Positions 11,806-38,108 of a DNA stretch of 64,000 nt are shown here, piece by piece. The notes under the pieces are model-generated. The model saw only the letters and a list, made by a program, of their open reading frames with translations. It did not search any database and was not told the origin of the DNA. Source of the stretch: Flavonifractor sp. An10 (GTDB taxonomy: Bacteria > Bacillota > Clostridia > Oscillospirales > Oscillospiraceae); assembly GCF_002161215.1 (NCBI RefSeq), contig NZ_NFMB01000003.1, positions 310,001 through 374,000 on the forward strand, read 5' to 3'. The position numbers were made by a program, and so were the translations under genes. The first letter of the stretch is position 1; the number at the start of each line of letters is the position of its first letter.

Positions 11806-11884
<79 letters not shown>

Positions 11885-19351: not shown

Positions 19352-19398
19352 CTCATAACCCGGAGGTCGGAGGTTCAAATCCTCCCCCCGCAACCATA
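19352..19398 (+). repeat. attR (displaced tRNA 3' half)
   Basis: The right copy of the 47-bp att repeat is the displaced 3' half of the original tRNA-fMet, including CCA. It is followed at once by the original tRNA terminator. It is not a complete tRNA. Confidence 0.9.
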
Positions 19399-19848: not shown

Positions 19849-19877
19849 TTGACAATGAATGAAATGGAGAATACAAT
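19849..19877 (+). promoter_or_regulatory. Promoter of the cobalamin-riboswitch operon
   Basis: TTGACA (19849-19854), 17-bp spacer and TACAAT (19872-19877). Transcription would start near 19884, just ahead of the aptamer. Confidence 0.8.
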
Positions 19878-19904
19878 CAAGATATCAAAAGTAAAATAGC
19901 AAGC

Positions 19905-20072
19905 GCACAGGTGTGCCCTCTCCTTCGGGAGAGGACAGAAAAGGGAAGCCGGGTGAAACTCCCGCACAGGGCCGCTGCTGTAATTGCGGAGTCCCGCCAA
20001 GAATGCCACTGGTAGAGAATACCGGGAAGGCGGCGAGGATGAGGATGCATGAGTCAGAAAACCTGCCTGCTG
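19905..20072 (+). promoter_or_regulatory. Adenosylcobalamin (B12) riboswitch aptamer
   Basis: The conserved cobalamin aptamer elements appear in order: GGGAAGCCGGGTGAAACTCC at 19943-19962, GCCGCTGCTGTAA, the TGCCACTG box at 20004-20011, ACCGGGAAGGCGGCGA, the GGATGAGGATGCATGAGTCA string, and the closing ACCTGCC. P1 forms between ACAGGT near 19907 and ACCTGC near 20061. High cobalamin is expected to reduce expression of the genes downstream through the terminator at 20164-20200. The B12 ligand is inferred from the aptamer class. Confidence 0.93.
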
Positions 20073-20163
20073 CGTGCACAGAAATGCTCTTCGGATCTCA
20101 GGAGCCAGTGTGCGGCAGAGGAATCCCCTTCCCATAGGCGAGGTGGATTGTTTGCAGGCATAT

Positions 20164-20200
20164 GCCGGGATTGGAGCATGCTCCAATCCCGGCTTTTTAT
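20164..20200 (+). terminator. Riboswitch expression platform: intrinsic terminator
   Basis: A perfect 14-bp stem (20164-20177 with 20180-20193) is followed by a T5 run, between the aptamer and the first gene. GCAGGCA at 20154-20160 is complementary to TGCCTGC at the 3' side of the aptamer P1 (20063-20069), a plausible switching helix. The core ATTGGAGCATGCTCCAAT recurs at 34950-34967. Confidence 0.8.
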
Positions 20201-20246
20201 ATGTTATGGTACATGCAGTTTGATGGAGAAAGGCGGGTCATGCCCA

Positions 20247-21254
20247 ATGGAACGATATGAATATCCCTTTGCGGCAATCGTAGGACAGGAGAAACTGAAA
20301 ACCGCGCTGCTACTTAACTTGGTAGATCCCCGCCTCGGCGGTGTGCTTATCCAGGGAGAGAAAGGGACGGCCAAGTCTACAGCGGTACGCGGTTTGGCGG
20401 CGCTGATGGATGAGGTGGAAGTAACCGAGGGGTGCCCCTTCCACTGCAGAATAGACGGAGAAATGCTGTGTGATGAATGCCGCACCAAACCGGACAGACA
20501 TACGGCACGCTATCGAAGACGGGTGGTGGAGCTCCCGGTAAGCGCCACAGAGGATCGGGTAGTGGGTACTCTGGATCTGGAACGGGCGCTGAAAGAAGGG
20601 GTGAAGGCATTTGAGCCCGGGCTGCTGGCTCAGGCAAATGGGAACATCCTCTATGTAGACGAGATCAACCTGTTGGAGGACCACATCGTAGATGTGCTGC
20701 TGGATTCCGCCGCGATGGGGGTAAATACCGTGGAACGGGAGGGGGTCTCCTACAGCCACCCGGCCCGCTTTATTCTGGTAGGCACCATGAACCCGGAGGA
20801 GGGAGATCTCCGCCCCCAGCTGTTGGATCGTTTCGGCCTGATGGTGGAGGTGCACGGCGAGCCGGAAGCGGAGGCCCGCAAGGAGGTCGTCCGCCGGCGG
20901 CTGGCCTTTGAGACAGACCCAGCCGCATTCTGTGCGTTCTATGAGCCAGAGCAGGAGAAACTGCGGCGGCGCATCGCGGCGGCGCAGGACCGTCTGTCTC
21001 AAGTGGCTCTTCCCGAGGCGCTCTTTGACACGGTGGCGCGTGTCTGCACTGCGCTCCAGGTGGACGGCCACCGCGCGGACATCACCATGCTCAAGACGGC
21101 ACGGGCCTTGGCCGCCTTGGATGGACGACAGGAGGCAGCCGAGGGAGATCTGCGGCAGGCGGCAGAGCTGGCCCTGCCCCACCGGCTGCGCCGGGCTCCC
21201 TTTGAGCAGGGGGGCGGCGCCGAACTTAACTGGGGGGAACTGTTCCATGGATAG
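20247..21254 (+). CDS. AAA+ chelatase subunit, ChlI/BchI (CobS-like) type
   Basis: This 335-residue ATPase energises metal insertion into a tetrapyrrole. Walker A GEKGTAKST lies at about 38-46 and Walker B is ILYVDEINLLEDH. The sensor region FILVGTMNPEEGDLRPQLLDRFGL is typical of magnesium/cobalt chelatase I subunits. A Cys/His patch (GCPFHCRIDGEMLCDEC, about 72-88) is also typical of the family. I chose ATG 20247, where homology to the family starts; in-frame starts upstream lie in the riboswitch leader. It overlaps the next gene by 8 bp. Confidence 0.88.
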   Translation: MERYEYPFAAIVGQEKLKTALLLNLVDPRLGGVLIQGEKGTAKSTAVRGLAALMDEVEVTEGCPFHCRIDGEMLCDECRTKPDRHTARYRRRVVELPVSATEDRVVGTLDLERALKEGVKAFEPGLLAQANGNILYVDEINLLEDHIVDVLLDSAAMGVNTVEREGVSYSHPARFILVGTMNPEEGDLRPQLLDRFGLMVEVHGEPEAEARKEVVRRRLAFETDPAAFCAFYEPEQEKLRRRIAAAQDRLSQVALPEALFDTVARVCTALQVDGHRADITMLKTARALAALDGRQEAAEGDLRQAAELALPHRLRRAPFEQGGGAELNWGELFHG

Positions 21255-23115
21255 AGCCCGATATCCCTTCTCCGCCGTGGTGGGTCAGGAGCGGGCAAAG
21301 CAGGCGCTTCTCTGCCTGGCTGTGGAGCCCCGCATCGGGGGCGTACTGCTGTGCGGAGAAAAAGGGACGGCTAAGTCCACCCTGGTGAGGGCCATGGGTG
21401 GGTTGGAGGGCGTACACCTGGTGGAGCTACCTGTGAGCACCACGGAGGACATGCTTTTGGGCGGCGTGGAGCTGGAGACGGCGGTGCGCACTGGCCGGCG
21501 GCAATTCCAACCCGGTCTGCTGGCTCGGGCCGACGGGGCAGTGCTGTACGCCGATGAGATCAATCTGCTTCCCGCCGCTCTGAGCGGTGCCCTGCTGGAC
21601 ACCCTGGAGAGCGGGGTGTGCCGGGTGGAGCGGGACGGCATTTCCCATACCTGTCCCGCCCGATTTTCTCTGGTAGGAACCATGAATCCGGAGGAGGGGA
21701 TCCTTCGGCCTCAACTGCTGGACCGCTTTGGCATCTATGTTGCGGTAATCGGAGAGACAGAGCCGGAGTCCCGGAAAGAGGTGGTCCGCCGCGCTCTGGC
21801 TTTTGAGACAGATCCCGTCGGATTTCGCGCCCAATGGGCCAGGCAGGAGGCGCGGCTGTCCGAGACAGTGGCCTCCGCCCGTGCGCTCCTGCCGCAGGTA
21901 TCTGTGGGAGAGGCGGAGGAGCAGGCGGCCTGTCTGTTGGCGCGGCAGGCCAATGCCGCCGGGCACCGGGCGGAGCTATCCATTCTGCACACAGCCCGTG
22001 CTCTGGCCGCACTTGCGGGACGGACATATCTAAACATGGACGATCTCCATACGGCGGCGGAGCTGGCCCTGCCCCACCGTCGGCGGGAGGGGTGCGAAAC
22101 GCCGCCATCCCGGAAGGCGGAGGCGCCAGCCCCCCAGGAGCCGCAACCGGACAGCAGCTCCCGGGACAGAGGAGGTTCAGTGGAGGACGTCCAGCCTCCG
22201 GCGGAAGATTTACCGCCGGACAGGGCACAGCCTCCTGCACCGCATTCTCAGCAGGGCCAGTCCCGGGAAAGGCTGGAGCAGGGGGAAGAGGTCTATGAGG
22301 TGCGCGCCCTGCTCACGGGCCGGGCTGACCGCTTGGCTCGGAGAGGCAGCGGACGGCGCAGCAAGACCCGCTCCGCCACCCGGCGGGGGCGGGCCGTGGG
22401 CGACCGCATTCCACAGGGAAAGGCAGAGGATCTGGCGATAGGCGCTACGCTGAGGGCCGCCGCACCCTACCAGCAGGTCCGCGGAGGAGGAGCGGCTGGG
22501 CTGGTTCTTCTGCCCTCTGATTTTCGGGTGAAGGTGCGGGAAAGCCGTGTCGGCGCGGATATCGTGTTTGCCGTGGACGCCAGCGGCTCCATGGGGGCGG
22601 CCCGGCGGATGAAAGAGGTCAAGGAGGCGGTGCTCTCCATGCTGATGGATTCCTACCAAAGGCGCGACCGGGTAGGGCTGGTGGCCTTCCGGGGCGGAGA
22701 GGCGTCCACACTGCTGGCGCTTACGCGCAGTGTGGAGCTGGCCCAGCGGGAGCTGCAATTTCTCCCCACCGGCGGCCGTACCCCGTTGGCGGCCGGACTG
22801 GAGGAGGCGCGCCGCCTCCTGGAGCTCCAGCGCCGCCGGATGAAGGAGTCCCTGCCGCTGCTGGTCCTAATCACAGACGGGCGGGCCAATTTCAGTCGGG
22901 GCGGAGACCCGGTGGAGGAGGCCATTCAGGCGGCCAGGAGGGTAGCTGAGTCCCACATTCCTGCCGTGGTTATCGATACAGAGCGTCAGTTTGTCTCCCT
23001 AGGGCTGGCGGCCCGGCTGGCTCAGGAGATGGGTGCGCCCTGCTACCGGGTGGAGGAGCTGCGGGCCAGGCCCCTGGCGCAGCTGGTACGCGGACACAGT
23101 CCGGCGGCGGGTTGA
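21247..23115 (+). CDS. Chelatase subunit ChlD/BchD type: AAA+ domain plus VWA domain
   Basis: This 622-residue protein pairs with the upstream I-type subunit. Residues 1-280 are an AAA+ module closely similar to the preceding protein and retaining Walker A GEKGTAKST and AVLYADEINLLP. A proline- and acid-rich linker occupies about 285-400. The C-terminal integrin-I/VWA domain has the MIDAS motif at Asp444-Ser446-Ser448 (FAVDASGSMG). In magnesium chelatases the D subunit usually has a degenerate ATPase, so an intact P-loop here is noteworthy. The arrangement supports a three-subunit chelatase with the large subunit downstream. Confidence 0.9.
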   Translation: MDRARYPFSAVVGQERAKQALLCLAVEPRIGGVLLCGEKGTAKSTLVRAMGGLEGVHLVELPVSTTEDMLLGGVELETAVRTGRRQFQPGLLARADGAVLYADEINLLPAALSGALLDTLESGVCRVERDGISHTCPARFSLVGTMNPEEGILRPQLLDRFGIYVAVIGETEPESRKEVVRRALAFETDPVGFRAQWARQEARLSETVASARALLPQVSVGEAEEQAACLLARQANAAGHRAELSILHTARALAALAGRTYLNMDDLHTAAELALPHRRREGCETPPSRKAEAPAPQEPQPDSSSRDRGGSVEDVQPPAEDLPPDRAQPPAPHSQQGQSRERLEQGEEVYEVRALLTGRADRLARRGSGRRSKTRSATRRGRAVGDRIPQGKAEDLAIGATLRAAAPYQQVRGGGAAGLVLLPSDFRVKVRESRVGADIVFAVDASGSMGAARRMKEVKEAVLSMLMDSYQRRDRVGLVAFRGGEASTLLALTRSVELAQRELQFLPTGGRTPLAAGLEEARRLLELQRRRMKESLPLLVLITDGRANFSRGGDPVEEAIQAARRVAESHIPAVVIDTERQFVSLGLAARLAQEMGAPCYRVEELRARPLAQLVRGHSPAAG

Positions 23116-23125
23116 GGAGGCTTTT

Positions 23126-26100
23126 ATGGTAAAGCTGCTTTTTGTGCTCATGAATGAATATCGGCTCTGGGCCCTGCCCCAGGCCCTGACCGCGCTGGAG
23201 CGCCGGTATCCCGGTTTAGTGGAGGGATGGGTTTACTCTGTGCGGGAGGTCAACGCTGATGCCGCACTGGAGCGGGCGCTTTTGGATGACGCTGCGCGGG
23301 CGGATATGGCCTTTCTGGCTTCCCACGGCTCTATCCAGAACCTCTGCTGTTTTTCGCGGCTTTGGAAAACGCTGGAGGGGCGACCGGTCTATTTTACCTC
23401 CACCATGGGGGATGAACTGGCCGAGCTGCTCCCCGAACTGGGCCTGGAGCCGTCGCTCTACGCCGCGCTGGACGCTTATTACCAGGCCGGAAGCCCGGAG
23501 GATCTGGAGGAGCTGATGCTCTGCGCTGTCAACGGGCGATTTGGAGGCGGCTATCCGCTCCGCCCCCCGACCCCTCCCCGAGGGCAGGGTGTGTATACCC
23601 TGGAGGGCTTTCTGCCGCCGGAGTCCGAAGAGCGTTACCGAGCGCAGATGGCCGCAGAGACCCGGCCGGTGATCGGTGTGCTGATCCATGACCATTATGC
23701 CAAGACCGGAAATCTGGAGCACGTGGACGCCCTGCTGCGCGCGATCCAGGCCCGGGGGTACGTCCCTTTCGCCTTGGCGGATTCTTTTGCGGCCGACCAT
23801 GGGGCGGAACGGGGCATGCTCTACCGGATGGAGCGTGCTTACCGAAGGGAAGACGGCACACCCATCCCGGCAGCGCTGGTGGTGTCCTACGGCTTCAGCC
23901 TGACCACCCTGTCCGGACGCGAGGCGCGAGCGGGTCAGGTTCCCTCCAGCGTATTTGAGGACTGGGGCCTTCCGGTGATTCAGGGCCTTACCACTTATTT
24001 CAGCGCGGATGAATACCGCCGGGACATCCGGGGGCTGGATCTGGTCTCCCTGCCCGTGTGCGTCTACCAGCCGGAGTTTGACGGGCAGCTCATTTCCGTG
24101 CCCTATGCGGTGACAGAGCGGGTGGCAGACGGGAGAAAGGTATGCCGTCCTCTGCCTGACCGGGTGGAGCGGGTGGCAGAGCTGGCCTGCCGATGGGCGG
24201 GACTGGCCAGGAAGCCCATGGCGGAGAAGAAGCTGGCCATTATCCTCCACAACATGCCGCCCCGAAACGACACCATCGGCAGCGCCCATGGCCTGGACAC
24301 GCCGGAGACGGTATTCCGGGTGATCCGCGCTTTGGAGGCGCGGGGTCTGCAGACGGAGCACCCCTTCACGGATGGGGCCGAGATCATCGACCGCATCCGG
24401 GCTGCGGTGACCAACGACAGCCGGTGGCTCTCCCCGGAGGCCGCGCTGGAACGGGCGGCGGCAACGGTGCCGGCGGCGCAGTATCAAGCGTGGTTTGACC
24501 GCCTCAACCCCGAGACCCGGTCGCAGATGAAGGAGAGCTGGGGGCCCGCCCCTGGTACCGTCATGGTATCCGGCGGACAGATCATTATCCCAGGCATCCG
24601 CAACGGCAACCTTTTCGTGGGGCTGCAGCCTCTGCGCTCCGCCCCGGAACAGGCGGAGGAGCTCTACCACAGCACCGACAGCACACCGCCCCATTCCTAT
24701 CTGGCCTTTTATCGCTGGGTGGACGAGGTGTTTGGGGCAGATGCGGTGCTCCATGTGGGCACCCACGGCACCCTGGAGTGGCTTCCGGGCAAGGAGATCG
24801 GGCTGTCCTCCGGCTGCTTTGGAGACATCTGTATCGGCGGCATACCCCATCTGTACATCTACAATATCAGCATACTGGGTGAGGGCATGCAGGCAAAGCG
24901 GCGCTCCTACGCCTGCATCCACGACCACCTGATCCCCTCCATGGATGACTCGGACACCTATGGCGGGCTCACAGATCTGGATGAGGCTATTGACGGCTAT
25001 TATCACGCCAGGCAGGCCAGACCCGCCCAGGTGCCGGCGCTTCTGGAGCGAATTTTTACGCTGGCGGAGGAACTGAAGGTGGCCACAGATCTAAAGCTGA
25101 GCCGGGCGGATCTGGAGGCAGACCCGGAGACGGGCGTGGGGTGTCTCCACCGCTGGGTGAGCCGCATCAAGACCTCTCTGGTGCGGGATGGGCTGCATAT
25201 TTATGGGCAGGCCCCCGAGGGGACGCAATTGGACAATCTGGCGCGGGCCCTGGTTCGGGTGCCCAACGGCGGAGTGCCCGCTCTGGAGGATAGCATCCTG
25301 CTGGCTCAGGGCTGGGAGCCGGGGGAGCTGCGGGCCGCGCCAGAGCGTATCTTCCCCGACGGGCGCACCGCCCTGCGCATCCGCGACGGAGCGGTGGAGA
25401 CGGCGCGCCGGCTCTTTTCCAGCCTGGCGGGACAGGGGTACCGGCCCGATTCGGTGGCAGGGATTCTGGCGTCGGAGGATTTTCCGGGAGACACAGCTCC
25501 ATTGGCAGGGACGTTGGATTTTGTATGCCGTCAAGTGGTGCCCCGGCTGTGCCAGACCACGGACGAGATGGAGCTGCTGCTGGCGGGCGTCGAGGGGCGG
25601 TTCATTCCGCCGCTGCCCGGAGGCAGCCCATCCCGAGGAAATGTCCACATCCTGCCCACCGGCCGGAATTTCTATGCCATCGATCCGGCGGCCGTCCCCA
25701 GCCGGGCCGCCTGGGCGGTGGGGCAGACACTGGCGGAGCAGGCCATTGCGGCCTACCGCACTCAGAAGGGGGAGCCCTGGCCGGAGAGCGTGGCCATTGT
25801 GGTCTACTCCGACGAGTGCATGAAAACCCATGGCGAGGACATCGCAGAGGTGTTCGCCCTGATGGGTGTGCGTCCCCTCTATCTGGGGCAGACCGACAAG
25901 GTGGTGGGGGTAGAGCCCATCCCTCTGGAGGAATTGGGCCGTCCTCGCATCGATACTGTGCTACGCATCAGCGGCCTGTTCCGTGATACCTTCCCCAATG
26001 TGGTGGAGTTGGTGGAGCGGGCGGTGTTGGCTGTGGCCAGCCTGGACGAGAGCCCGGAGCAGAACTTTATCAAAAAACATACCGACCAGGAGCGGGAGCG

Positions 26101-26872
26101 GCTGGTCGCCCAGGGCCTGAGCAAAAACGAGGCGGCGGAGCAGGCAACTTTGCGGGTGTTCGGCTGCCCGCCCGGCACCTATGGGGCGGGAGTGAGCAAG
26201 GCAATTCACAGCCAGAACTGGGAGAGCTGGACAGACCTGAGCCAGATCTATACCCTCTGGAGCGCCCACGGATACAGCAGCCGCTTTCACGGACAGGCCA
26301 TGCCGGAGCTGTTCCGCAGCCGGCTCTCCTCTGTGGGGGTGACCATCAAAAACGAGTCCTCGGTGGAGATCGATATGCTGGACAGCGATGACTTTTACAG
26401 CTACCATGGCGGCCTGATTGCCTGCGTCCGGGACTGCAGCGGTCAGAAGCCTGTCTCCGTGGCGGGACTCACCGCCGACCCCGCCAGGCCGGAGACCTCC
26501 GACGTGGAGACTGAACTGGCCCGGGTCATGCGCAGCCGTATTCTCAACCCCAAATGGCTGGAGGGGCTCAAGCGCCACGGCTACAAGGGCGCCCAGGAAC
26601 TCTCCACCACCTTTGACACCTTCTTCGGTTGGGACGCGTCCGCAGAGGTGGCGTCTGACTGGATGTATGACGCCATGGCCCGGCAGTTCCTCCTGGATAA
26701 GGAAACCCGGCAGTGGATGGAGCAGGTCAACGACGCAGCGGTGCTCCAGATGAGCGAGCGATTCCTGGAAGCTTACCAGCGGGGCATGTGGCAGGCGGGC
26801 GAGGAGGAGCTGCGGGCCATCCAGCGCATCTATATGGACATGGAGGGCGTCATGGAGGATGGATACCAATGA
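23126..26872 (+). CDS. CobN/ChlH-type large subunit of a metal chelatase
   Basis: This 1248-residue protein has the size and motifs of the cobaltochelatase CobN/Mg-chelatase H family, which binds the tetrapyrrole and the metal. Visible landmarks are AIILHNMPPRNDTIGSAHGL (about 370), HVGTHGTLEWLPGKE (about 545), and the late VVYSDECMKTHGEDIAEVF and FGCPPGTYGAGVSKAI. GAGGAGG precedes the ATG. The B12 riboswitch argues for cobalt or corrinoid chemistry, but Mg, Ni or another metal and a non-corrin ring are possible. No corrin-synthesis genes are in the window. Confidence 0.9.
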   Translation: MVKLLFVLMNEYRLWALPQALTALERRYPGLVEGWVYSVREVNADAALERALLDDAARADMAFLASHGSIQNLCCFSRLWKTLEGRPVYFTSTMGDELAELLPELGLEPSLYAALDAYYQAGSPEDLEELMLCAVNGRFGGGYPLRPPTPPRGQGVYTLEGFLPPESEERYRAQMAAETRPVIGVLIHDHYAKTGNLEHVDALLRAIQARGYVPFALADSFAADHGAERGMLYRMERAYRREDGTPIPAALVVSYGFSLTTLSGREARAGQVPSSVFEDWGLPVIQGLTTYFSADEYRRDIRGLDLVSLPVCVYQPEFDGQLISVPYAVTERVADGRKVCRPLPDRVERVAELACRWAGLARKPMAEKKLAIILHNMPPRNDTIGSAHGLDTPETVFRVIRALEARGLQTEHPFTDGAEIIDRIRAAVTNDSRWLSPEAALERAAATVPAAQYQAWFDRLNPETRSQMKESWGPAPGTVMVSGGQIIIPGIRNGNLFVGLQPLRSAPEQAEELYHSTDSTPPHSYLAFYRWVDEVFGADAVLHVGTHGTLEWLPGKEIGLSSGCFGDICIGGIPHLYIYNISILGEGMQAKRRSYACIHDHLIPSMDDSDTYGGLTDLDEAIDGYYHARQARPAQVPALLERIFTLAEELKVATDLKLSRADLEADPETGVGCLHRWVSRIKTSLVRDGLHIYGQAPEGTQLDNLARALVRVPNGGVPALEDSILLAQGWEPGELRAAPERIFPDGRTALRIRDGAVETARRLFSSLAGQGYRPDSVAGILASEDFPGDTAPLAGTLDFVCRQVVPRLCQTTDEMELLLAGVEGRFIPPLPGGSPSRGNVHILPTGRNFYAIDPAAVPSRAAWAVGQTLAEQAIAAYRTQKGEPWPESVAIVVYSDECMKTHGEDIAEVFALMGVRPLYLGQTDKVVGVEPIPLEELGRPRIDTVLRISGLFRDTFPNVVELVERAVLAVASLDESPEQNFIKKHTDQERERLVAQGLSKNEAAEQATLRVFGCPPGTYGAGVSKAIHSQNWESWTDLSQIYTLWSAHGYSSRFHGQAMPELFRSRLSSVGVTIKNESSVEIDMLDSDDFYSYHGGLIACVRDCSGQKPVSVAGLTADPARPETSDVETELARVMRSRILNPKWLEGLKRHGYKGAQELSTTFDTFFGWDASAEVASDWMYDAMARQFLLDKETRQWMEQVNDAAVLQMSERFLEAYQRGMWQAGEEELRAIQRIYMDMEGVMEDGYQ

Positions 26873-27963
26873 AGGCGGGGCTGGACACCCTGGTTCTGCG
26901 CCTTACCAACCGCTGTAATCTGAGCTGCGCCTACTGCTACGCTGAGGGAGAACCGGCGGGGGCGGATCTGCCGCCGGAGCTGGCAGTAAAAGCGGTCTCC
27001 CTGGCCTGCCCGCCGGGTGGGAGCCTGCATATTCAGTTTACCGGCGGGGAGCCCCTGCTTTGTTGGGATACGGCGGCGCAGGTGCTGGACTTCGGGCGGG
27101 CCACCGGGCGGCAGATCCAAGCCTCCCTTCAGACCAACGGCACCCTGCTTACCCCGGAGCTCTGCCAGGAGCTGAAGGCAAGACAGGTAGCGGTAGGTGT
27201 GAGTCTGGACGGTGTAGCCGCGGACAACGCCGCGCGTTTCTTCCCCGGGGGCTCCCCCTCCTTCCCGGCCGCAGTTCAGGGGCTTCAGGCTCTGGCAGAG
27301 GCCGGTATGGTGGTCAATCTGACCGCAGTGGTAACGGCAGTCAATGTGCAGAACCTGGATCGGCTGCTGGAGTTTGCGCTCTGGTGCGGCAATATCCACG
27401 GAGTAGGATTGGACCTGGTGCGGCCCCAGGGCCGGGGCGCGGGGGCGGAGCTATTTCCTTCTCCACAGGCGCTGGAGGAGGGCATGAGCCGCCTACTGGC
27501 ACGATACGACCAGCTGGCCGGTCTTGGTCGGCCGGTGCGGCTCAAGGAACTGGAGCGGCTGCGCCTGCTTCTGCGCACAGGGCGGCGGAGAGACTGCTAT
27601 TGCAATGCCCAGACGGGCCGCTCTCTGGCGGTGACTCCGGACGGCTGCCTGTGGCCCTGCTCCGCTCTGGCCGGCGTGGATGGATGCCTTCTGGGGCAGT
27701 CAGATGCGGGGGCATGGCCGCCGCAGCGGCCTTGCCCCGGGTTGGAGCCGCCGGAGGTATGTACCCGCTGCCCTGCCTTTGGGCTCTGCGGCGGGGGATG
27801 TCCTGCCGCCCGGCTGGCCGGCTTTTCTCAGCTGGACTGCCAGATGCACCGGAAGATGCTGGAGCACGCCTGCCGACTGGAGGGGAAGCTGGAGTTGTGG
27901 AATACGTGGCAGAACACGTTTCCAGATAGAGAAAACCCATATCATGAGGAGGAATTGGAATGA
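26869..27963 (+). CDS. Radical SAM protein with C-terminal SPASM-like cysteine cluster
   Basis: This 364-residue enzyme binds the radical SAM [4Fe-4S] cluster through Cys16, Cys20 and Cys23 (CNLSCAYC), with SAM-binding FTGGEP at about 57-62. A cysteine-rich C-terminal region (from about 243: CYCN, GCLWPC, VCTRCPAFGLCGGGC, LDCQ) fits one or two auxiliary Fe-S clusters of the SPASM/Twitch class. Such proteins modify peptides, or in the AhbC/AhbD and NirJ cases haem-type tetrapyrroles. With a chelatase just upstream (ATGA overlap) and no precursor peptide visible, tetrapyrrole modification is the more attractive guess. Confidence 0.88.
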   Translation: MKAGLDTLVLRLTNRCNLSCAYCYAEGEPAGADLPPELAVKAVSLACPPGGSLHIQFTGGEPLLCWDTAAQVLDFGRATGRQIQASLQTNGTLLTPELCQELKARQVAVGVSLDGVAADNAARFFPGGSPSFPAAVQGLQALAEAGMVVNLTAVVTAVNVQNLDRLLEFALWCGNIHGVGLDLVRPQGRGAGAELFPSPQALEEGMSRLLARYDQLAGLGRPVRLKELERLRLLLRTGRRRDCYCNAQTGRSLAVTPDGCLWPCSALAGVDGCLLGQSDAGAWPPQRPCPGLEPPEVCTRCPAFGLCGGGCPAARLAGFSQLDCQMHRKMLEHACRLEGKLELWNTWQNTFPDRENPYHEEELE

Positions 27964-29144
27964 AACAACATCTGCACCGGATGGCGGGGCTCTGCCTGGC
28001 CGTCACCCTATTGCTGACCGCAGCGGGCTGCGGTCAGCAGGCCGTTCAGGAGAGCACCACCCCCTCTCCCGTGGTGGAGACAACTGCAATGGATAAAAAC
28101 GACTTGACCGTCGTGCGAAGCATGGAGCTCCAGTACGCCAACAATTTTTCGGTGGACTACTGTGCCAACGGCTGCAAAATCATCACTGACGGTGCGGGCC
28201 AGAAGTTCCTGTGGCTGCCAGAGGGGGGCGAAGTCCCGGATGATACGGGGGACATGACGGTGCTTCAGGCTCCGCTGACCAAGCTGGGCTGCTTTTCCAC
28301 CACCCATGCCACCCTGTTCCATGCCATCGGGGCGCTGGATAAGGTCAGTCTGGTGACCACCGATAAGGACAAGTGGTACATCGAGCAGGTGGCTCAGCAG
28401 ATGGAGGACGGCACCACCACTTACGTGGGCAAGAACTCCGCCCCCGACTATGAGCTCATCAGCGCCGCCGCCCCTCAGATCATCCTGATTTCTGCAAACA
28501 CCATGCACGGCAGTGACGAGGTGCTGGCCAAGCTGGATGAGCTGGGCATCCCCTACATCGCGGACAGCCAGCATCTGGAGAACCATCCGCTTGGCCGGGT
28601 GGAGTGGGTCAAGCTGGTGGGCGCCCTGCTGGACATGGAGGCGGAGGCAGATGCCTACTTTGACGAGGAGGTGCAGCGGGTGAACGCCGTGGCCGAGAGC
28701 GTGGCCGGGGAGAGTGAGCACCCCTCCATCCTCCAGACCTATATCTTCAAAGGAACCGTCTATGTGCGCAACGGCGGCGACTACGTCAACAAGATGCTGG
28801 AGCTGGCCGGCGGCACCTATCCCTTCGCCGAGCTGGAACCCGACCAGGGCGGTAATACCAAGATGACGGTGGAGGAGTTCTATCAGGGAGCGGTGGATGC
28901 CGATATTCTGATCTATGACAATACCAGTGACGTCAGCGTCTCTACCGTGGCCGATATTCTGGCCAATGGCGACTATCTGGGCGACATGAAGGCCATCCAA
29001 GAGGGCAACGTCTGGGGGATCCAGAAAAACTACTGGCAGTCGGCCGATGACGTGGCCACCATGATTGAAGATCTTGCAACCATCATCTATCATCCGGAAA
29101 ACGCGGATCAGCTCCACTATTTCTACAAGCTGCCCGCAGAATAA
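27960..29144 (+). CDS. ABC transporter substrate-binding lipoprotein (BtuF/FepB-like)
   Basis: This 394-residue lipoprotein has a signal peptide with the lipobox TAAGC, so Cys24 would be lipidated. The mature part is a cluster A-II periplasmic-binding fold of the type used for cobalamin, haem or siderophores. It shows LGCFSTTHATLFHAIGALDK, then DYELISAAAPQIILI and a long interdomain helix. It overlaps the radical SAM gene by 4 bp and is followed by permease and ATPase genes. The ligand is likely a tetrapyrrole or corrinoid from the context. Confidence 0.88.
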   Translation: MKQHLHRMAGLCLAVTLLLTAAGCGQQAVQESTTPSPVVETTAMDKNDLTVVRSMELQYANNFSVDYCANGCKIITDGAGQKFLWLPEGGEVPDDTGDMTVLQAPLTKLGCFSTTHATLFHAIGALDKVSLVTTDKDKWYIEQVAQQMEDGTTTYVGKNSAPDYELISAAAPQIILISANTMHGSDEVLAKLDELGIPYIADSQHLENHPLGRVEWVKLVGALLDMEAEADAYFDEEVQRVNAVAESVAGESEHPSILQTYIFKGTVYVRNGGDYVNKMLELAGGTYPFAELEPDQGGNTKMTVEEFYQGAVDADILIYDNTSDVSVSTVADILANGDYLGDMKAIQEGNVWGIQKNYWQSADDVATMIEDLATIIYHPENADQLHYFYKLPAE

Positions 29145-29152
29145 GCGGCGGA

Positions 29153-29212
29153 GCCCGACCGTTTGGTCGGGCCCTGCCGGGAGCCGTCTGCCGCAGTGGG
29201 GGACGGCTCCCG
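29153..29212 (+). other. Two intercistronic hairpins before the permease
   Basis: A perfect 8-bp stem (29153-29160 with 29165-29172) and a perfect 11-bp stem (29178-29188 with 29202-29212) fill the 99-bp gap. Neither has a T-run, so they more likely stabilise the upstream message, raising binding-protein level, than terminate. Confidence 0.6.
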
Positions 29213-29243
29213 ACAGGGAAACGCACGGGAGGGAGAGAGGAAC

Positions 29244-30257
29244 ATGAAACAAAGCACCCGAAATGTCGTAGGCTTCGCTGTTCTGGCGGTTCTGCTGGCC
29301 GTCTTGTTCTACTGGAACATCAACACTGGTTCGGTTCATCTGAGCCTGGAGCGTATTTTTACCCTTCTCCGCTGGGGCAACGACGGCTCTATGGAGGGCA
29401 ACATCCTGTGGAAGATCCGCCTGTCCCGCCTGCTGGGTGCGGCGCTTCTGGGTGGGGCACTGTCCATCGCAGGCTTCTTGCTCCAAACCTTCTTCAAAAA
29501 CCCGATTGCAGGCCCCTTTGTGCTGGGGATCTCGTCCGGCTCCCGCCTGTTTGTGGGTTTTTTTCTTCTGGCTGCTACCCCCATTGTAACGGGGAATTTT
29601 TCTCCCTATGTGATCTTCCTGGCGGCCTTCGCGGGGGCACTGGCCGCCATGGCCCTGGTGCTGGCCGTGTCCAGCCGGGTGCAGAATCTGGCCATGCTGC
29701 TGGTTATCGGTATGATGATCGGGTACATCTGCGATGCGGGCACGGACTTTATGATCACATTCGCTGAGAGTAATCAGCTCCAGAATTTCACGGTCTGGAC
29801 GATGGGCAGTTTTTCCGGCCTGACCTGGGCCACATTGGGGGCATCCGCCCTCATCACCTTCCCCACGGTGCTTCTGGTGTTCCTCCTGTCCAAGCCCCTG
29901 GGGGCTTACCTGCTGGGGGAGAGCTATGCCAAGAGCATGGGGGTCAACATCAAGGGGTTCCGCGTGGCACTGATCCTCCTGTCCAGCATCCTGTCGGCCT
30001 GCGTAACCGCCTTTGCCGGTCCCATCTCCTTTGTGGGCATCGCCGTGCCCCATATCACCCGCATGCTCTTTCGCACATCTCGGCCCATGGTGCTCATACC
30101 GGCCACCTTTCTCACAGGAAGCGTATTCTGCCTGGCCTGTGACCTCATTGCCCGCACGGCGTTTGCCCCAACGGAGCTCACCATCAGCACCGTCACCTCG
30201 GTGTTGGGCGCCCCTGTAGTCATCTGGCTTATGATCAAGCGCAGGAGGAACAGCTGA
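29244..30257 (+). CDS. FecCD/BtuC-family ABC transporter permease
   Basis: This 337-residue protein has about ten membrane segments. It carries the family features SRLLGAALLGGALSIAGFLLQ near residue 60, NPIAGPFVLGISSG at about 88-101, and the cytoplasmic coupling region GESYAKSMGVNIKGFRV followed by VTAFAGPISFVGIAVPHITR. It forms the channel for cobalamin, haem or siderophore uptake together with the flanking binding protein and ATPase. GGAGAGAGG precedes the ATG. Confidence 0.93.
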   Translation: MKQSTRNVVGFAVLAVLLAVLFYWNINTGSVHLSLERIFTLLRWGNDGSMEGNILWKIRLSRLLGAALLGGALSIAGFLLQTFFKNPIAGPFVLGISSGSRLFVGFFLLAATPIVTGNFSPYVIFLAAFAGALAAMALVLAVSSRVQNLAMLLVIGMMIGYICDAGTDFMITFAESNQLQNFTVWTMGSFSGLTWATLGASALITFPTVLLVFLLSKPLGAYLLGESYAKSMGVNIKGFRVALILLSSILSACVTAFAGPISFVGIAVPHITRMLFRTSRPMVLIPATFLTGSVFCLACDLIARTAFAPTELTISTVTSVLGAPVVIWLMIKRRRNS

Positions 30258-31504
30258 TGTATTTTGAAACACAGAAGCTGTCGGTGGGCTACCACCGGCA
30301 GCCCCTCATCAAAGACATTGACATTGGTATCTGGCAGGGGGGTATCCTCTGCCTGATCGGTCCCAACGGCTCGGGGAAATCCACCATCCTGCGCAGCATC
30401 ACGCGGCATCTGGCCAAGCTGGGAGGGGTGGTCACCATCGGCGGCGGCGATCTGGACAAGATGAGCGACAAGGAGCTGGCCCGCCATGTGTCGGTGGTGC
30501 TCACCGACCGGGTGGAGCCGGATCTCATGACCTGCTGGGAGGTGGTGGCGGCCGGGCGCTACCCCTACACCAACCATTTTGGAAAGCTCTCGCAGGAGGA
30601 TCAGCGCATTGTGGAGGAGTCTATGAAGCGGGTGAATGCACTGGATCTGCGGGAGCAGCGGTTTACCGAACTCAGCGATGGACAGAAGCAGCGGGTGCTG
30701 CTGGCCAGAGCTCTATGCCAGCAGCCGGAGGTTATTGTCCTGGATGAGCCCACCAGCTATCTGGACATCCGCCATAAAATTGAACTGCTGAACATCCTCC
30801 GGGAAATGACCGCCGGCCGGGGACTGTCCGTGGTGCTCTCCCTCCACGAGGTGGACCTGGCCACCAAGCTGGCCGATGTGGTGGTGCTGGTGAAGGACAA
30901 TGCCATCTTCCGCTGCGGCGCGCCGGAGGATGTACTGAATGACAGCATCATCCGGCAGCTCTACGGCATTCACGACGGCACCTTCAATCTGCTCCTGGGG
31001 AGTGTAGAGCTCTGCGGCGCGGCGGGGAACCCCCGCGTGTTCGTGGTGCCCGGAGAGGGCAGGGGAGCCCCCTGCTTCCGGGCCCTTCAAAAGCGGGGGA
31101 TCCCCTTTGCCACAGGAATTCTCCAGCGGTGCGACGTGGACTGTGCAGTGTCAGAAACCCTTGCGGCCCGCCGATATACGGCGGATAGTTTCTCTCCGCC
31201 GGCCTCGGACACTCTGCGTGCCGCTATCGCGGCGGCCTGCGGCTCCGCCTGTGTGGTGGACAGCGGTGCTGCGATAGGCGCCTATAACCAGGAAAATATG
31301 GAACTGCTGCGGGCGGCGGCAAAGGCCGGTGTGCCGATTCTCACCCTGCGCCGGGAGGCGCTGAAGGTCCTGGGGGCCGCGCGCCGCTTCGACACCGTCA
31401 GAGCTTTGGCCGATGAAGCGGCCCGGCTTGTGTCTACGGGAAAGGGGGGAGCATCTTGTCCCTCATCTGGTGCTATCTCAGACGCTATCGCTGGTACTGC
31501 CTGA
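30257..31504 (+). CDS. ABC importer ATPase (BtuD/FecE-like) with an extra C-terminal domain
   Basis: This 415-residue protein has an ATPase domain at residues 1-255: Walker A GPNGSGKST at 35-43, signature LSDGQKQRVLLARAL and Walker B VIVLDEPTSYLD. A C-terminal extension of about 160 residues follows (from VFVVPGEGRGAP to the end). It reads like a small Rossmann-type fold and is absent from classical BtuD/FecE. The start overlaps the permease stop (TGATG). The frame runs 49 bp into the next gene, so either the tail is genuinely long or the next gene starts later. Confidence 0.88.
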   Translation: MYFETQKLSVGYHRQPLIKDIDIGIWQGGILCLIGPNGSGKSTILRSITRHLAKLGGVVTIGGGDLDKMSDKELARHVSVVLTDRVEPDLMTCWEVVAAGRYPYTNHFGKLSQEDQRIVEESMKRVNALDLREQRFTELSDGQKQRVLLARALCQQPEVIVLDEPTSYLDIRHKIELLNILREMTAGRGLSVVLSLHEVDLATKLADVVVLVKDNAIFRCGAPEDVLNDSIIRQLYGIHDGTFNLLLGSVELCGAAGNPRVFVVPGEGRGAPCFRALQKRGIPFATGILQRCDVDCAVSETLAARRYTADSFSPPASDTLRAAIAAACGSACVVDSGAAIGAYNQENMELLRAAAKAGVPILTLRREALKVLGAARRFDTVRALADEAARLVSTGKGGASCPSSGAISDAIAGTA

Positions 31505-33171
31505 CGGCCCTCCTGTTTGTCCTGATTGAGGCAAACTGTGAACTGCTGCTGCCGACGCTGATGGCGCGAATGATCGACGAGGGCGTGCGATCAGGGCAGA
31601 TAGACCGCATCCTAGAGCTGGGCGGCTGGATGGCCGGGGCTGCCATAGGCGGCATTGTGTGCGTGCTCGTGCGCAATCTCTGCTCCGGGACGGCTTCCCA
31701 GCGGTTTGGGGCGGATCTCCGACGGGGACTGTTTGCCAAGTGCCTTCATCTCACGGAGGGCGGCGTGGATCAGGTGGGGAGCGGTTCTCTGGTGACCAGG
31801 ATGTCCAGCGACTGTGACCAGCTCGCCAAATCGGTAAACTCCGCCCTGCGCATTGGCATCAAGGCGCCTGTCCTGTGCGTCGGCAGCGTAGCCTACGCCA
31901 TGGGACTGGACGCGGGCTTGAGCTGGATTGTCCTTGCGGTGGTTCTGGCGGTGACGGCGCTCATTGCGGGCTATGTGGTGCAGAGCAGCCGGCGCTTCCG
32001 CCGCGTGCGGGATGCCATGGATCAGGTCAATGCGACTGTGCAGGACTTCCTGCGGGGTATCCGTTTGATCCGCGCCTTGGGACGGGAGGAGTCGGAGACC
32101 CGCCGTTTTCAGGTGTGTAGCGCGGAACTGGAGGAAGCGGGCATTCACCTTCAGCTGCTATCCGCCTGGTTTGCCCCGCTGGTCACCCTCACCGTAAATC
32201 TCGGCACGGTTGCAGTGCTGTGGGCGGCGGGGACTTGGGAGGTGGAGGTGGGTACCGTATCCGCTTTTGTCACCTACATGACCCAGATGCTCACCTCCCT
32301 GATGACCCTGGTGGATGTATTCAAACTTCTCATACGGGCGCAGACCTCGGCGCAGCGGGTGGAGGAGGTGCTTCAGCTTCCGGAGGAAGAAGATCCGGCA
32401 CAGCCAGAGCACATGGGGGCAGAGGAGCCGGTGCTGGAACTGCGGCATGTGACCTTCGCGTATCCCGGCGGCAGCGGAGTCCCCGCCCTGCGCGATGTTT
32501 CCTTCTCACTGCGGCGGGGTGAGCGGCTGGCTGTGGTGGGCCCCACTGGCGCGGGGAAATCCACTCTGGCCTGGCTCTGTGCCAGGCTCTATGAGCCGCA
32601 GTTGGGAGAGATACGGCTGGGCGGGCGGCTGCTAAGCTGTCTTCCACTGGAACAGATTCGACGGCAGGTGGCGGTGGCCGCCCAGAAAAGCGCCCTGTTT
32701 TCCGGCACGGTTCGGGACAATCTATCCATGGGAGACCGGAGCGCGGGGGAAGATCAGCTCTATGCCGCTCTGGAGGCCGCCCAAGCGGCTGATTTCGTAA
32801 AAGATGCCGGCGGACTGAGCGCCCGGCTGGACCAGGGGGGCGCCAACCTCTCAGGCGGGCAGCGGCAGCGCCTCTCTCTGGCCAGAGCCCTGCTCAGGGA
32901 GAGCGCAGTGTTGATCCTGGATGACTGCACCAGTGCGCTGGACCCTGGAACGGAACATAAGGTTCTCGCCGGCATCGGGAGAAACCCCAACCAGGCGGTG
33001 CTCCTCATTACACAGAAAATACGCGCCGCCAGCGGGATGGATCGGATTCTGGTACTGGAGGAAGGTTGGCAGGCAGGGCTGGGAACCCATGAATTTCTGA
33101 TGGACAGCTGCCCTGCCTACCGCGAACTCTGGACCTCCCAGGCTTTGGAGGTGAACACAGATGGCACATAG
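31456..33171 (+). CDS. Exporter-fold ABC transporter half, degenerate ATPase site
   Basis: This 571-residue protein has an N-terminal six-helix membrane domain (about 10-310) and a C-terminal ATPase (about 325-565). The ATPase has GPTGAGKST and LSGGQRQRLSLARAL. Its Walker B VLILDDCTSALD carries Asp where the catalytic Glu should be. This is the degenerate half of an asymmetric heterodimer, as in TM287/288. The start is TTG at 31456 behind AAGGGGGGA; the next in-frame starts would cut the first helix. It overlaps both neighbours. Confidence 0.88.
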   Translation: MSLIWCYLRRYRWYCLTALLFVLIEANCELLLPTLMARMIDEGVRSGQIDRILELGGWMAGAAIGGIVCVLVRNLCSGTASQRFGADLRRGLFAKCLHLTEGGVDQVGSGSLVTRMSSDCDQLAKSVNSALRIGIKAPVLCVGSVAYAMGLDAGLSWIVLAVVLAVTALIAGYVVQSSRRFRRVRDAMDQVNATVQDFLRGIRLIRALGREESETRRFQVCSAELEEAGIHLQLLSAWFAPLVTLTVNLGTVAVLWAAGTWEVEVGTVSAFVTYMTQMLTSLMTLVDVFKLLIRAQTSAQRVEEVLQLPEEEDPAQPEHMGAEEPVLELRHVTFAYPGGSGVPALRDVSFSLRRGERLAVVGPTGAGKSTLAWLCARLYEPQLGEIRLGGRLLSCLPLEQIRRQVAVAAQKSALFSGTVRDNLSMGDRSAGEDQLYAALEAAQAADFVKDAGGLSARLDQGGANLSGGQRQRLSLARALLRESAVLILDDCTSALDPGTEHKVLAGIGRNPNQAVLLITQKIRAASGMDRILVLEEGWQAGLGTHEFLMDSCPAYRELWTSQALEVNTDGT

Positions 33172-34969
33172 CGGGCGGGCGGCCGGGGGGCCGCCCCTGC
33201 CACCACAGCGGCGAAGTCTTCAGCAGCGATTCGGGCCCCACGCAAAGGCCAGGAACGGACGGGGCACCGTGCGCCGACTGCTGGCGCTCTATGCCCGGTG
33301 GAAAAGGGAACTTATTCTGGTGGTAGGCCTCACCGTGCTCTCCACCGTTGCATCCCTTGCAGTGCCCTATCTGCTGGGGCTGGCGGTGGACTGCTTCCGG
33401 GTGGGCGGAGTGGACAGAACTGCACTGGCGGCGCTACTGGTTCTCCTGGTGGGAGTGATAGCGGCACAGTGGCTTGGCAACTGGGGACGCCGCCGCTGGA
33501 TGGAGATTATCTCCCAGAGAATGGTGACCCAAATCCGCCGGGATTGCTTTGCCAAATTGGGGAAGCTTCCCCTGTCCTACTTTGACCGACACCCCCACGG
33601 GGATACGATGAGCCGACTGGTCAGCGACGCCGACAATGTCAGCACCGTGGCCGCAGAGTCTGTGACGCAGCTGTTTTCCAGCTTGCTGACAGTGGCGGGC
33701 GCATTGACCATTATGGTCTTCCTCAGTCCTCTGCTCACATTGGTGGCGTTGGCAACGGTACCAGTGATCGCCCTGTGTACACGCCTCATCTCGCAGCGAA
33801 GCCGGACGCTCTACCGCAGGCAGGCCGATGAGCTGGGGCGCCTGAGCGGTCTGGTACAGGAGACGCTGTCCAACGGACGTACAGTCAAGCTCTACCACCG
33901 GCAGGCAGAGGTGCTGGAGCAATTTGACCATATAAACGAAGTGCTGTGCACCACCTCAGTAAAAGCACAGGTATGCGCCGGACTGCTCAGCCCCTTGGTA
34001 AATATGGTCAACCATTTGGGGTTTGCCCTGATTGCCTGTACCGGCGGTGTGCTGGCCCTTCACGGGGTGGTGCGGATTGGCCTGGTAGTAAGCTTTTTGG
34101 GCTATTCCCGGCAGTTAGGGCGGCCGCTTAACAGCATCGCAGCCCTTTTTTCCAGTATCCAGCAGGCCGTGGCTGGGGCGGAACGCCTCTTCGATATCCT
34201 GGATGAACCTGAGATGCCAGCAGATGCCCCTGAGGCCGTCTCTCCCCAAACGGTACGGGGAGAGGTGGCTTTTGAGGACGTCTCTTTTTCCTATGAGCCG
34301 GAGAAGTCCGTGCTGGAGCATGTGAGCCTCCGGGTTGAGGCCGGGGAAGTGGCTGCATTTGTGGGAGAGACCGGCGCGGGTAAGAGTACGCTGATCAATC
34401 TGTTGACCCGGGCCTATGAACCATCGGCAGGGGTAATCCGGCTGGACGGCATTCCTCTGGAGCAATACAGCCGCGCGAGCCTAGGCCGGTGCTTCTCTGT
34501 GGTGCTCCAGGATACGGCCTTTTTCCGGGGCACAGTATTGGAAAACCTGCGATATGCCCGGCCGGAGGCCACAAAGGACGAGGTTATGCAAGCGGCGAAG
34601 CTGGCCAACGCACACGGTTTTATTCAGCGCCTCCCGCAGGGATACGATACCATCATCTCAGGTGCAGCAGAGGAGCTTAGCCAAGGGCAGCGTCAGCTAC
34701 TTGCAATCGCCCGGGCTCTGGTAAGCCAGGCGCCTATCCTGATTCTGGATGAGGCCACCAGCAACGTGGATACCACTACCGAGCGTCGTATCCAACAGGC
34801 AACCATGCGTCTGCTGAAGGGCCGAACCTGTTTCCTGATTGCGCACCGCCCCTCCACGATCCGCCGTGCCGACCGCATTTTTGTGGTGGGGAAGCAGGGA
34901 ATCATGGAGTCCGGTACGTATGATGAGCTGATGAAAAAGCGTGGAGTTTATTGGAGCATGCTCCAATAA
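33161..34969 (+). CDS. Exporter-fold ABC transporter half, catalytically competent
   Basis: This 602-residue partner of the preceding protein starts with a basic N-terminal tail, then six membrane helices (about 50-330). The ATPase has GETGAGKST, the variant signature LSQGQRQLLAIARAL and a normal Walker B ILILDEATSNVD with the catalytic Glu. The pair could export a product of the cluster. Alternatively, like YbtPQ and IrtAB, which have exporter folds but import metallophores, it could act in uptake. Its last codons lie in a palindrome shared with the riboswitch terminator. Confidence 0.88.
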   Translation: MAHSGRAAGGPPLPPQRRSLQQRFGPHAKARNGRGTVRRLLALYARWKRELILVVGLTVLSTVASLAVPYLLGLAVDCFRVGGVDRTALAALLVLLVGVIAAQWLGNWGRRRWMEIISQRMVTQIRRDCFAKLGKLPLSYFDRHPHGDTMSRLVSDADNVSTVAAESVTQLFSSLLTVAGALTIMVFLSPLLTLVALATVPVIALCTRLISQRSRTLYRRQADELGRLSGLVQETLSNGRTVKLYHRQAEVLEQFDHINEVLCTTSVKAQVCAGLLSPLVNMVNHLGFALIACTGGVLALHGVVRIGLVVSFLGYSRQLGRPLNSIAALFSSIQQAVAGAERLFDILDEPEMPADAPEAVSPQTVRGEVAFEDVSFSYEPEKSVLEHVSLRVEAGEVAAFVGETGAGKSTLINLLTRAYEPSAGVIRLDGIPLEQYSRASLGRCFSVVLQDTAFFRGTVLENLRYARPEATKDEVMQAAKLANAHGFIQRLPQGYDTIISGAAEELSQGQRQLLAIARALVSQAPILILDEATSNVDTTTERRIQQATMRLLKGRTCFLIAHRPSTIRRADRIFVVGKQGIMESGTYDELMKKRGVYWSMLQ

Positions 34970-34971
34970 AC
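34946..34971 (+). terminator. Palindromic hairpin closing the chelatase/ABC operon
   Basis: A perfect 12-bp stem (34946-34957 with 34960-34971) overlaps the last codons and stop. Its 18-bp core equals that of the riboswitch terminator at 20170-20187. No T-run follows, so termination may be weak. Bases 34972-35135 contain no gene I can support. Confidence 0.5.
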
Positions 34972-35135: not shown

Positions 35136-35880
35136 TAGTCAAAACCTCCGGCTAAGCCGGAGGCTTGAGTAGGCCCTATAAGGGCCTGATACGGACGAAG
35201 CCCCTTAAGGGGCCCCGAAAGGTTTGCCGACTGCATTTCTTTCTCGGGCTACCCCTTAAGGGGTTCCTTTTATGCCTTCCTGTTCTCGCGACCCGTAAAC
35301 GGGTCAACAAACTCTTTCAGGCCTATCTGGTCTGCTATTTGATCCGATGCCAGTTGGTTTCGGATATACTCTGCTATTTGCTTTTTATTCCGTCCCACTG
35401 TATCCACATAATATCCTCTGGCCCAAAAGTGCCGATTTCCATACTTATACTTCAAATTTGCATGCCGATCAAATATCATCAGACTACTTTTCCCTTTCAA
35501 ATACCCCATAATCTGTGATACGCTGTACTTGGGTGGGATACTTATCAACATATGTATATGGTCTGGGCACGCTCTGGCTTCTATAATCTCTATGCCCTTT
35601 TGCTGACACAGTTTTCTTAATATTACTCCTATATCTTGTTTTATCTGACTATATATCTCCATCCTTCGATATTTGGGTGCAAATACGATGTGATATTGAC
35701 ACCTCCAACTTGTATGCTCTAAACTACTTATGTCTTTGTCTTTCACGATGAAGACCTCCCTGTTATCGTAGTTGTGTGGTCGGCAAACCACTTCTACCTT
35801 ATCAGGGAGTTTTTTCTTTTTCTACTTTTCTCCTCGCTATAAGCTATTTTTTACCCCCGGCATAGCCGGGGGTTGCCTTT
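35136..35880 (-). mobile_element. IS200/IS605-family insertion sequence (tnpA only)
   Basis: One transposase gene is flanked by the imperfect terminal hairpins typical of this family: CCTCCGGC-TAA-GCCGGAGG at about 35145-35163 and CCCCCGGC-ATA-GCCGGGGG at about 35851-35870. There are no terminal inverted repeats or target duplication, as expected. No tnpB is present. The outer limits are estimates to within about 15 bp. Confidence 0.8.
35270..35746 (-). CDS. tnpA: IS200/IS605-family Y1 transposase TnpA
   Basis: This 158-residue single-strand DNA transposase is complete. The metal-binding HUH motif is His63/His65 in ACPDHIHMLISIPP and the nucleophile is Tyr127 in QIAEYIRNQ. The N-terminal WRCQYHIVFAPKYRR is diagnostic. 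I chose GTG at 35746 because GGGAGG lies 8 bp upstream; the frame is open further to 35791. All catalytic residues are present, so it may be active. Confidence 0.93.
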   Translation of the reverse strand: MKDKDISSLEHTSWRCQYHIVFAPKYRRMEIYSQIKQDIGVILRKLCQQKGIEIIEARACPDHIHMLISIPPKYSVSQIMGYLKGKSSLMIFDRHANLKYKYGNRHFWARGYYVDTVGRNKKQIAEYIRNQLASDQIADQIGLKEFVDPFTGRENRKA

Positions 35881-37957: not shown

Positions 37958-37977
37958 GCCTATCCGGCGGTGGCTGG

Positions 37978-38010
37978 GAGCGCACCGCCCGCCAAGGGGG
38001 CGGTGCGCTC
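37978..38010 (+). terminator. Strong intercistronic hairpin
   Basis: A perfect 13-bp GC-rich stem (37978-37990 with 37998-38010) lies between the DUF3991 gene and the coupling-protein gene. No T-run follows, so it may not terminate. The 151-bp gap holds no gene. Confidence 0.5.
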
Positions 38011-38108
38011 TGCCGCTGGACCGGGCCCCGGTTCATCCTGGACCACCAAGAAGGTCACACTGGAAGGTAGATCAAACACAGAGAATGACCAGAAAGAGGG
38101 AGATACAC

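Follow-up and report, generated by a model that had tools for sequence, protein, structure and literature searches.

Organisms with a cobalt-early corrin pathway should not need a late cobaltochelatase, and yet many have one, a puzzle that has been printed for haloarchaea (PMC8305020). The same question is raised by an operon of Flavonifractor sp. An10, in which a CobN-type chelatase is encoded together with a radical S-adenosylmethionine (SAM) enzyme and two transporters. The window, that is, the whole stretch of 64,000 nucleotides (nt) analysed, corresponds to positions 310001–374000 of contig NZ_NFMB01000003.1 (C9) in a genome assembly of 3.88 Mb. The operon is proposed, tentatively and with doubt slightly outweighing belief, to scavenge and disassemble corrinoids in a bacterium that owns a corrin pathway. 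At low adenosylcobalamin the riboswitch would open and BtuFCD would take in corrinoids; CobN–ChlI–ChlD would then act on the imported corrin, most likely by ATP-driven removal of cobalt with the help of the radical SAM enzyme, the released cobalt would pass through CbiK into the cobalt-early pathway of the cell, and the exporter pair would expel the spent ring. Confidence is strong for a corrinoid as the substrate, moderate for removal rather than insertion of cobalt, and weak to moderate for the radical SAM and export steps. If cobalt is indeed removed, environmental corrinoids would be a metal store and not only a vitamin.

The operon comprises nine genes in one direction (20247–34969, forward strand), one more than were counted in a preliminary description of this DNA, which had otherwise labelled the products correctly as ChlI, ChlD, CobN, a SPASM-like radical SAM enzyme, a BtuFCD-like importer and an exporter-fold ATP-binding cassette (ABC) pair. 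It lies 3′ of a leader (19849–20200, same strand), in which the promoter, cobalamin aptamer and terminator described earlier were all recovered by sequence scan and by the match to RF00174. The sigma-70-type promoter, TTGACA-17-TACAAT (19849–19877), agrees with 11 of 12 consensus positions; the adenosylcobalamin riboswitch aptamer (19895–20084) is full length (100.5 bits, E 5.8e-24); and the intrinsic terminator (20164–20200), a 13-pair hairpin (20164–20193) followed by the T run TTTTT, is likely the riboswitch expression platform. The 701-base scan contained four promoter-like sites (0.7 ± 0.9 in shuffles) and two terminator-like sites (0.8 ± 0.9 in shuffles).

Chelatase subunits are encoded first: a ChlI-type AAA+ subunit of 335 amino acids (aa) (20247–21254; TIGR02442, 501 bits, and TIGR02030, 428 bits, both below cut-off), a ChlD-type AAA+/VWA subunit of 622 aa (21247–23115; Pfam and NCBIfam profile matches) and a CobN-type large subunit of 1248 aa (23126–26872; PF02514, 1141.7 bits; TIGR02257). 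The radical SAM gene (26869–27963; PF04055; 364 aa), of a CobN-associated clade, overlaps both cobN and btuF by 4 nt. The importer consists of a BtuF-type substrate-binding protein (27960–29144; PF01497), a BtuC-type permease (29244–30257; PF01032; best model BtuC NF003001, 204.7 bits against a cut-off of 334) and a BtuD-type ATPase (30257–31504), which matched FecE (220.6 bits) above NF007082 (199.3 bits), a corrinoid ABC transporter ATPase model whose cut-off was not reached. The C-terminal extension of this ATPase amounts to about 175 residues and aligns partly to NF007082. Two exporter-fold half-transporters, the first with a TTG start (31456–33171) and the second at 33161–34969, each carry ABC_membrane (PF00664) and ABC_tran (PF00005) and together have the composition of a heterodimeric ABC exporter; an aspartate was read after the Walker B motif of the first, suggesting a degenerate site. 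By open reading frame (ORF) coordinates, with start codons picked by the analyst, six of the eight junctions overlap and the two gaps measure 10 nt (ChlD/CobN) and 99 nt (BtuF/BtuC). The view of the operon as one unit under corrinoid control is supported.

The absence of corrin biosynthesis genes, noted in the preliminary description, holds for the operon but not for the genome. Two further cobalamin riboswitches are located 5′ of cbiD (C10:41457) and 5′ of cbiM (C10:57669), the latter directly 3′ of cbiC and cbiK; near them CbiD, CbiF, CbiG, CbiH, CbiJ, CbiE, CbiT, CbiA, CbiB, CbiP and CbiC were found with NCBIfam, and CbiK and CbiL are encoded at C10:56904 and C10:60537. Since the cobalt-early pathway of the host includes a CbiK of its own, this operon does not supply the cobalt step of de novo synthesis. 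The same description had reckoned that a complete anaerobic pathway elsewhere, missing only this chelatase, would reduce the operon to ordinary B12 synthesis: the pathway is there, but the chelatase is not its missing step. Nor does the operon appear to be needed as the chelatase of a cobalt-late pathway, as CbiD, CbiG, CbiL and CbiK are present (no search was made for CobG or CobF). Each of the 20 cluster genomes tested encodes an early cobalt chelatase, which is CbiK in 5 and CbiX in 15, together with CbiL and CbiD, and ordinary B12 synthesis lacking only this chelatase was rejected on the presence of CbiK or CbiX in every one. The gene cbiK adjoins the cluster in locus L040 and in genome G029. 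In the latter, three CbiK matches occur, and the one adjoining the cluster lies behind its own cobalamin aptamer.

The gene neighbourhoods of 24 loci were compared (the window, L034, L035, L039–L043 and L178–L193, with four extensions, L205–L208); L041 and L036 are one and the same locus, counted once. Loci L039–L043 were the only ones with a CobN or ChlD match among the best 80 of more than 574 relatives, the other 75 being left out. Neighbour counts are bounded by the extent of the locus DNA, several loci derive from metagenome bins, and gene labels without Pfam confirmation rest on BLAST to the window proteins. CobN was found in 24/24 loci (in L190 via its extension), and the radical SAM gene overlaps it or lies within 43 nt by ORF coordinates in 16. 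ChlI and/or ChlD are present in 17/24 loci, at least one BtuF/C/D-like gene in 20/24, and CbiZ in 10/24, all ten confirmed with Pfam; L189 has a CbiZ fragment besides. Exporters were counted in 12 loci, of the heterodimeric type in two (window, L034) and of ABC-2 type in ten; that of L042 is an ATPase only, at a contig end, and L181, L187 and L192 have weaker matches of the ABC-2 kind, which were left uncounted. CN_hydrolase (nitrilase/amidase) genes occur in 7/24 loci, five confirmed with Pfam and those of L188 and L189 edge-cut and identified by BLAST only. A cobalamin aptamer was detected in 21/24 loci; it was missed in L041 and in two loci truncated by contig ends, L039 and L185. In L041, a TIM-barrel gene matched Pfam AP_endonuc_2 only and no NCBIfam model; it may encode CbiR.

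A corrinoid is the likely substrate because of the cobalamin riboswitch and the association with CbiZ and BtuFCD. Import and metal chemistry on a ring, as first suggested, are thus retained, while the broad term tetrapyrrole, covering haem and chlorophyll products, is not supported, because related loci have corrinoid genes as neighbours (CbiZ, BtuFCD-like and, in two loci, CbiK) and the 20 cluster genomes all have CbiD, CbiL and an early chelatase. The large subunit bears on one such alternative, in which haem or another porphyrin would be imported and demetallated for its iron as by HmuS. Window CobN belongs to the HmuS superfamily and matched its structure (PDB 9d26). On the other hand, where HmuS has the motif LSLDHxxEFMGG, the window protein has the CobN-like LDSDDFYSYHGG (register fixed by GG), and His-1209/Glu-1212 of HmuS have no equivalents; added to this, the frequency of the aptamers and of CbiZ (10/24 neighbourhoods, haem genes not having been searched for as such) makes this alternative very improbable. 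The protein also carries the motif GTHG, just reaches the cut-off of TIGR02257 (822.8 against 822.05 bits) and is single-copy in the host genome. The distinction between GTHG and GKHG was considered as a marker of metal direction and dropped, both being present among clade loci. Of 12 genomes tried as anchors for a CobN tree, five gave a match, and none of the Bacteroidales genomes among those tried did.

The radical SAM enzyme has a CX3CX2C motif, the middle cysteine of which is masked (X) in one sequence of the alignment of 24 orthologues, and seven C-terminal cysteines (C245, C264, C298, C301, C307, C311 and C324), which are invariant in that alignment. This pattern is that of SPASM-domain radical SAM enzymes. 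The predicted structure, built from a six-row alignment (mean pLDDT 77.2), is closest to the sulfatase maturase anSME and to maturases of ribosomally synthesized and post-translationally modified peptides (RiPPs); by its cysteines and predicted fold, the enzyme is placed with the SPASM enzymes. Of the 71 NCBIfam families matched, the 25 with the best scores all stay below their cut-offs; PapB, the best of them, scores 103 bits where 340 would be needed. Both the folds and the PapB match would suit an enzyme that matures a ribosomal peptide, the operon then making a peptide metallophore. In seven loci (window, L034, L039, L040, L041, L191 and L192), however, there is no room for an adjoining precursor because both neighbours overlap the radical SAM gene or lie at most 3 nt away, and the gaps of 356–519 nt in L042, L182, L187, L188 and L189 hold cobalamin aptamers; a precursor beside the gene was rejected on these grounds (precursors elsewhere were not searched for), and a peptide product is scarcely probable. 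In L043, L181, L185 and L186, one side of the radical SAM gene has no close labelled neighbour.

In a phylum sample of 398 genomes the radical SAM clade was found in 17, including that of the window, with E values no higher than 1.6e-70, the following match having 2.1e-42; the threshold was fixed after this gap had been seen, and G450, with only a 142-residue radical SAM fragment near a CobN fragment, was scored negative. The window gene thus belongs to a discrete clade. CobN is encoded in all 17 clade genomes against 47 of the 398 overall (Fisher p 9e-18), and CbiD in all 17 against 178 overall (Fisher p 7e-7); these p values ignore kinship, the 17 genomes falling in 8 families, and so overstate the evidence. 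The 17/17 count led to the rejection of a chance link between the radical SAM gene and CobN, and the conservation of that gene with the cluster, on which the earlier interpretation depended, is borne out. CbiD was found in 44 of the 47 CobN-positive genomes (all except G316, G360 and G413), and the CbiD counts argue that CobN alone is no marker of the aerobic pathway in this phylum. In a family sample, an orthologue was present in 4/200 genomes, including that of the window, at E 2.4e-56 or better (next match 1.1e-22). In an order sample of 394 genomes the best match besides that of the window itself was 1.4e-38, and the other three orthologue-bearing family members were not among the matches. 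Five sampled congeners were without an orthologue (G022, G118 and G182 in the family sample, G791 and G864 in the order sample).

Removal of cobalt is moderately favoured over insertion: the 20 cluster genomes already have CbiK or CbiX, CbiL and CbiD; exporters recur in unrelated forms; amidases recur; a cbiK adjoining the cluster, as in L040 and G029, suits a hand-over of released cobalt; and HmuS shows that demetallation is possible in the chelatase superfamily. The exporter-fold pair, for which movement of product or a part in uptake had both been entertained, is more likely an exporter because ten other loci carry an unrelated ABC-2 exporter. Amidases and CbiZ would suit disassembly of corrinoids more than their reuse as a whole. 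It is possible, with doubt clearly prevailing, that anaerobes strip foreign or unusable corrinoids stepwise by such a reverse cobalt chelatase, refilling the cobalt-early pathway with the metal and exporting the empty ring; the nucleotide loop would be removed by CbiZ, the amides by nitrilase-type amidases and the cobalt by CobN–ChlI–ChlD with the radical SAM enzyme. No report of cobalt removal from a corrinoid was found in a search of the open-licence literature.

Alternatively, imported corrins that are metal-free or wrongly metallated might receive cobalt from CobN–ChlI–ChlD and serve as cofactor. Insertion is the known direction of CobNST, CbiZ co-occurs in 10/24 loci, and an auxotroph such as Dehalobacter restrictus would benefit; a role in salvage was offered, as speculation, for the haloarchaeal late chelatase (PMC8305020). 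Such a salvage leaves the radical SAM enzyme, the exporter and the amidases unexplained, and should pay without a ring pathway too, though CbiD is present in 17/17 clade genomes; it is considered somewhat unlikely. Alternatively again, the radical SAM enzyme might make an altered corrin or tetrapyrrole, either a new cofactor or a metallophore, with CobN setting the metal, the exporter secreting the product and BtuFCD recapturing its metal-loaded form. The sharing of one operon by importer and exporter genes, a discrete clade of radical SAM enzymes that keeps the full set of seven SPASM cysteines and the second CobN-type subunit in several loci would agree with this; against it, the operon is without a ring-synthesis gene, importer and exporter types differ among loci, and the product is not known. 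Ring modification is considered quite unlikely.

Several observations weigh against cobalt removal from scavenged corrinoids. To our knowledge, every ATP-driven CobN/ChlH complex inserts metal, and we know of no ATPase partners of HmuS. CbiZ, amidase and cbiK genes are all absent from the window operon, and neither the weak matches of its BtuF to solved structures nor the predicted radical SAM fold gave any direct sign of a corrinoid ligand (nor, for the latter, of another substrate). Neither ChlI nor ChlD was seen within the examined DNA of 7/24 loci, 12/24 have no counted exporter, and the aptamer found in L042, L043 and L188 is not 5′ of the radical SAM gene. No full-length radical SAM gene of the clade is present in 30 of the 47 CobN-positive phylum genomes, and no CbiD in three. 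HmuS is reported to be NADH-dependent (PMC12583661), and the corrinoid auxotroph Dehalobacter restrictus strongly induces a similar operon when starved of corrinoid (PMC4285132), which counts against the proposal because cobalt alone would not help such an organism.

That similar operon, operon-2 of Dehalobacter restrictus, with a counterpart in Acetobacterium woodii, is the closest known system, sharing the cobalamin riboswitch, a BtuFCD/FepBCD-type importer, CobN and Mg-chelatase-type subunits (PMC4285132). On corrinoid starvation its first gene rises 346-fold in mRNA and its proteins 46-fold on average, in a host whose corrinoid auxotrophy is ascribed to a truncated cbiH (PMC4285132). The window operon has the riboswitch, BtuFCD, CobN and ChlI/D of this type; operon-2, however, includes two CbiZ genes, whereas none of the nine window genes encodes CbiZ, and the words radical SAM are absent from the main-text account of it (PMC4285132). 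The haloarchaeal late cobaltochelatase likewise combines CobN with a ChlI/D-type subunit in cobalt-early organisms, but is archaeal, and its description mentions no radical SAM partner (PMC8305020). HmuS, which takes iron from haem, shares the large-subunit superfamily with window CobN and differs in being NADH-dependent, membrane-bound, encoded in an hmu operon and active on haem (PMC12583661). Aerobic CobNST has the CobN subunit in common, TIGR02257 being reached, while the window has ChlI/ChlD-type ATPases in a cobalt-early host with CbiK.

In Chlorobium, a CobN/BchHID cluster and, separately, CbiZ beside cobalamin transporter genes occupy variable genome regions (PMC8620254). In a gut-microbiome reconstruction, ChlID and CobN with CobG and CobF were assigned to the aerobic variant, CbiK/X and CobN being contrasted as pathway-specific chelatases (PMC6593275). 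Most remaining sequences of the chelatase superfamily are considered not reliably annotatable (PMC12583661). The operon type is thus already known from Dehalobacter restrictus and the late-chelatase puzzle from haloarchaea; new, as far as the literature search reaches, are the conservation of a radical SAM partner, the recurrence of exporter and amidase genes and the counting of these genomes against CbiD. No report of CobN paired with this radical SAM enzyme was found in the open-licence literature. The pattern has now been counted in a phylum sample, and the few conserved accessory genes now named are amenable to expression and assay.

Large SLH-anchored DUF4430 proteins, confirmed with Pfam, adjoin the cluster in 4/24 loci (L178, L187, L188 and L189) and are possibly surface corrinoid binders. 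We take DUF4430 proteins to resemble transcobalamin; two of them, compared with the PDB, gave no sequence match to a transcobalamin chain. The record of L043, titled Accumulibacter, bears a cluster whose other occurrences in this comparison are in Bacillota-type genomes, and the contig may be misbinned. In L192, a group II intron match (17299–17469) adjoins a short ChlD open frame, and the intron may interrupt chlD.

On the 5′ side of the window operon, the 3′ half of a tRNA-Met (11806–11882) recurs as a near-copy at about 19352–19396 (18 nt exact, the rest nearly identical by eye), and therefore the roughly 7.5 kb between them looks like an integrated element ending just 5′ of the operon. Just 3′ of it, an IS200-like transposase is encoded on the reverse strand (35270–35791; PF01797, 134.7 bits). 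Further on, a conjugative DNA-transfer coupling protein (PF02534) and, after it, group II intron matches (39569–39780 and 40387–40471), all within 37710–40471, suggest a conjugative element 3′ of the operon.

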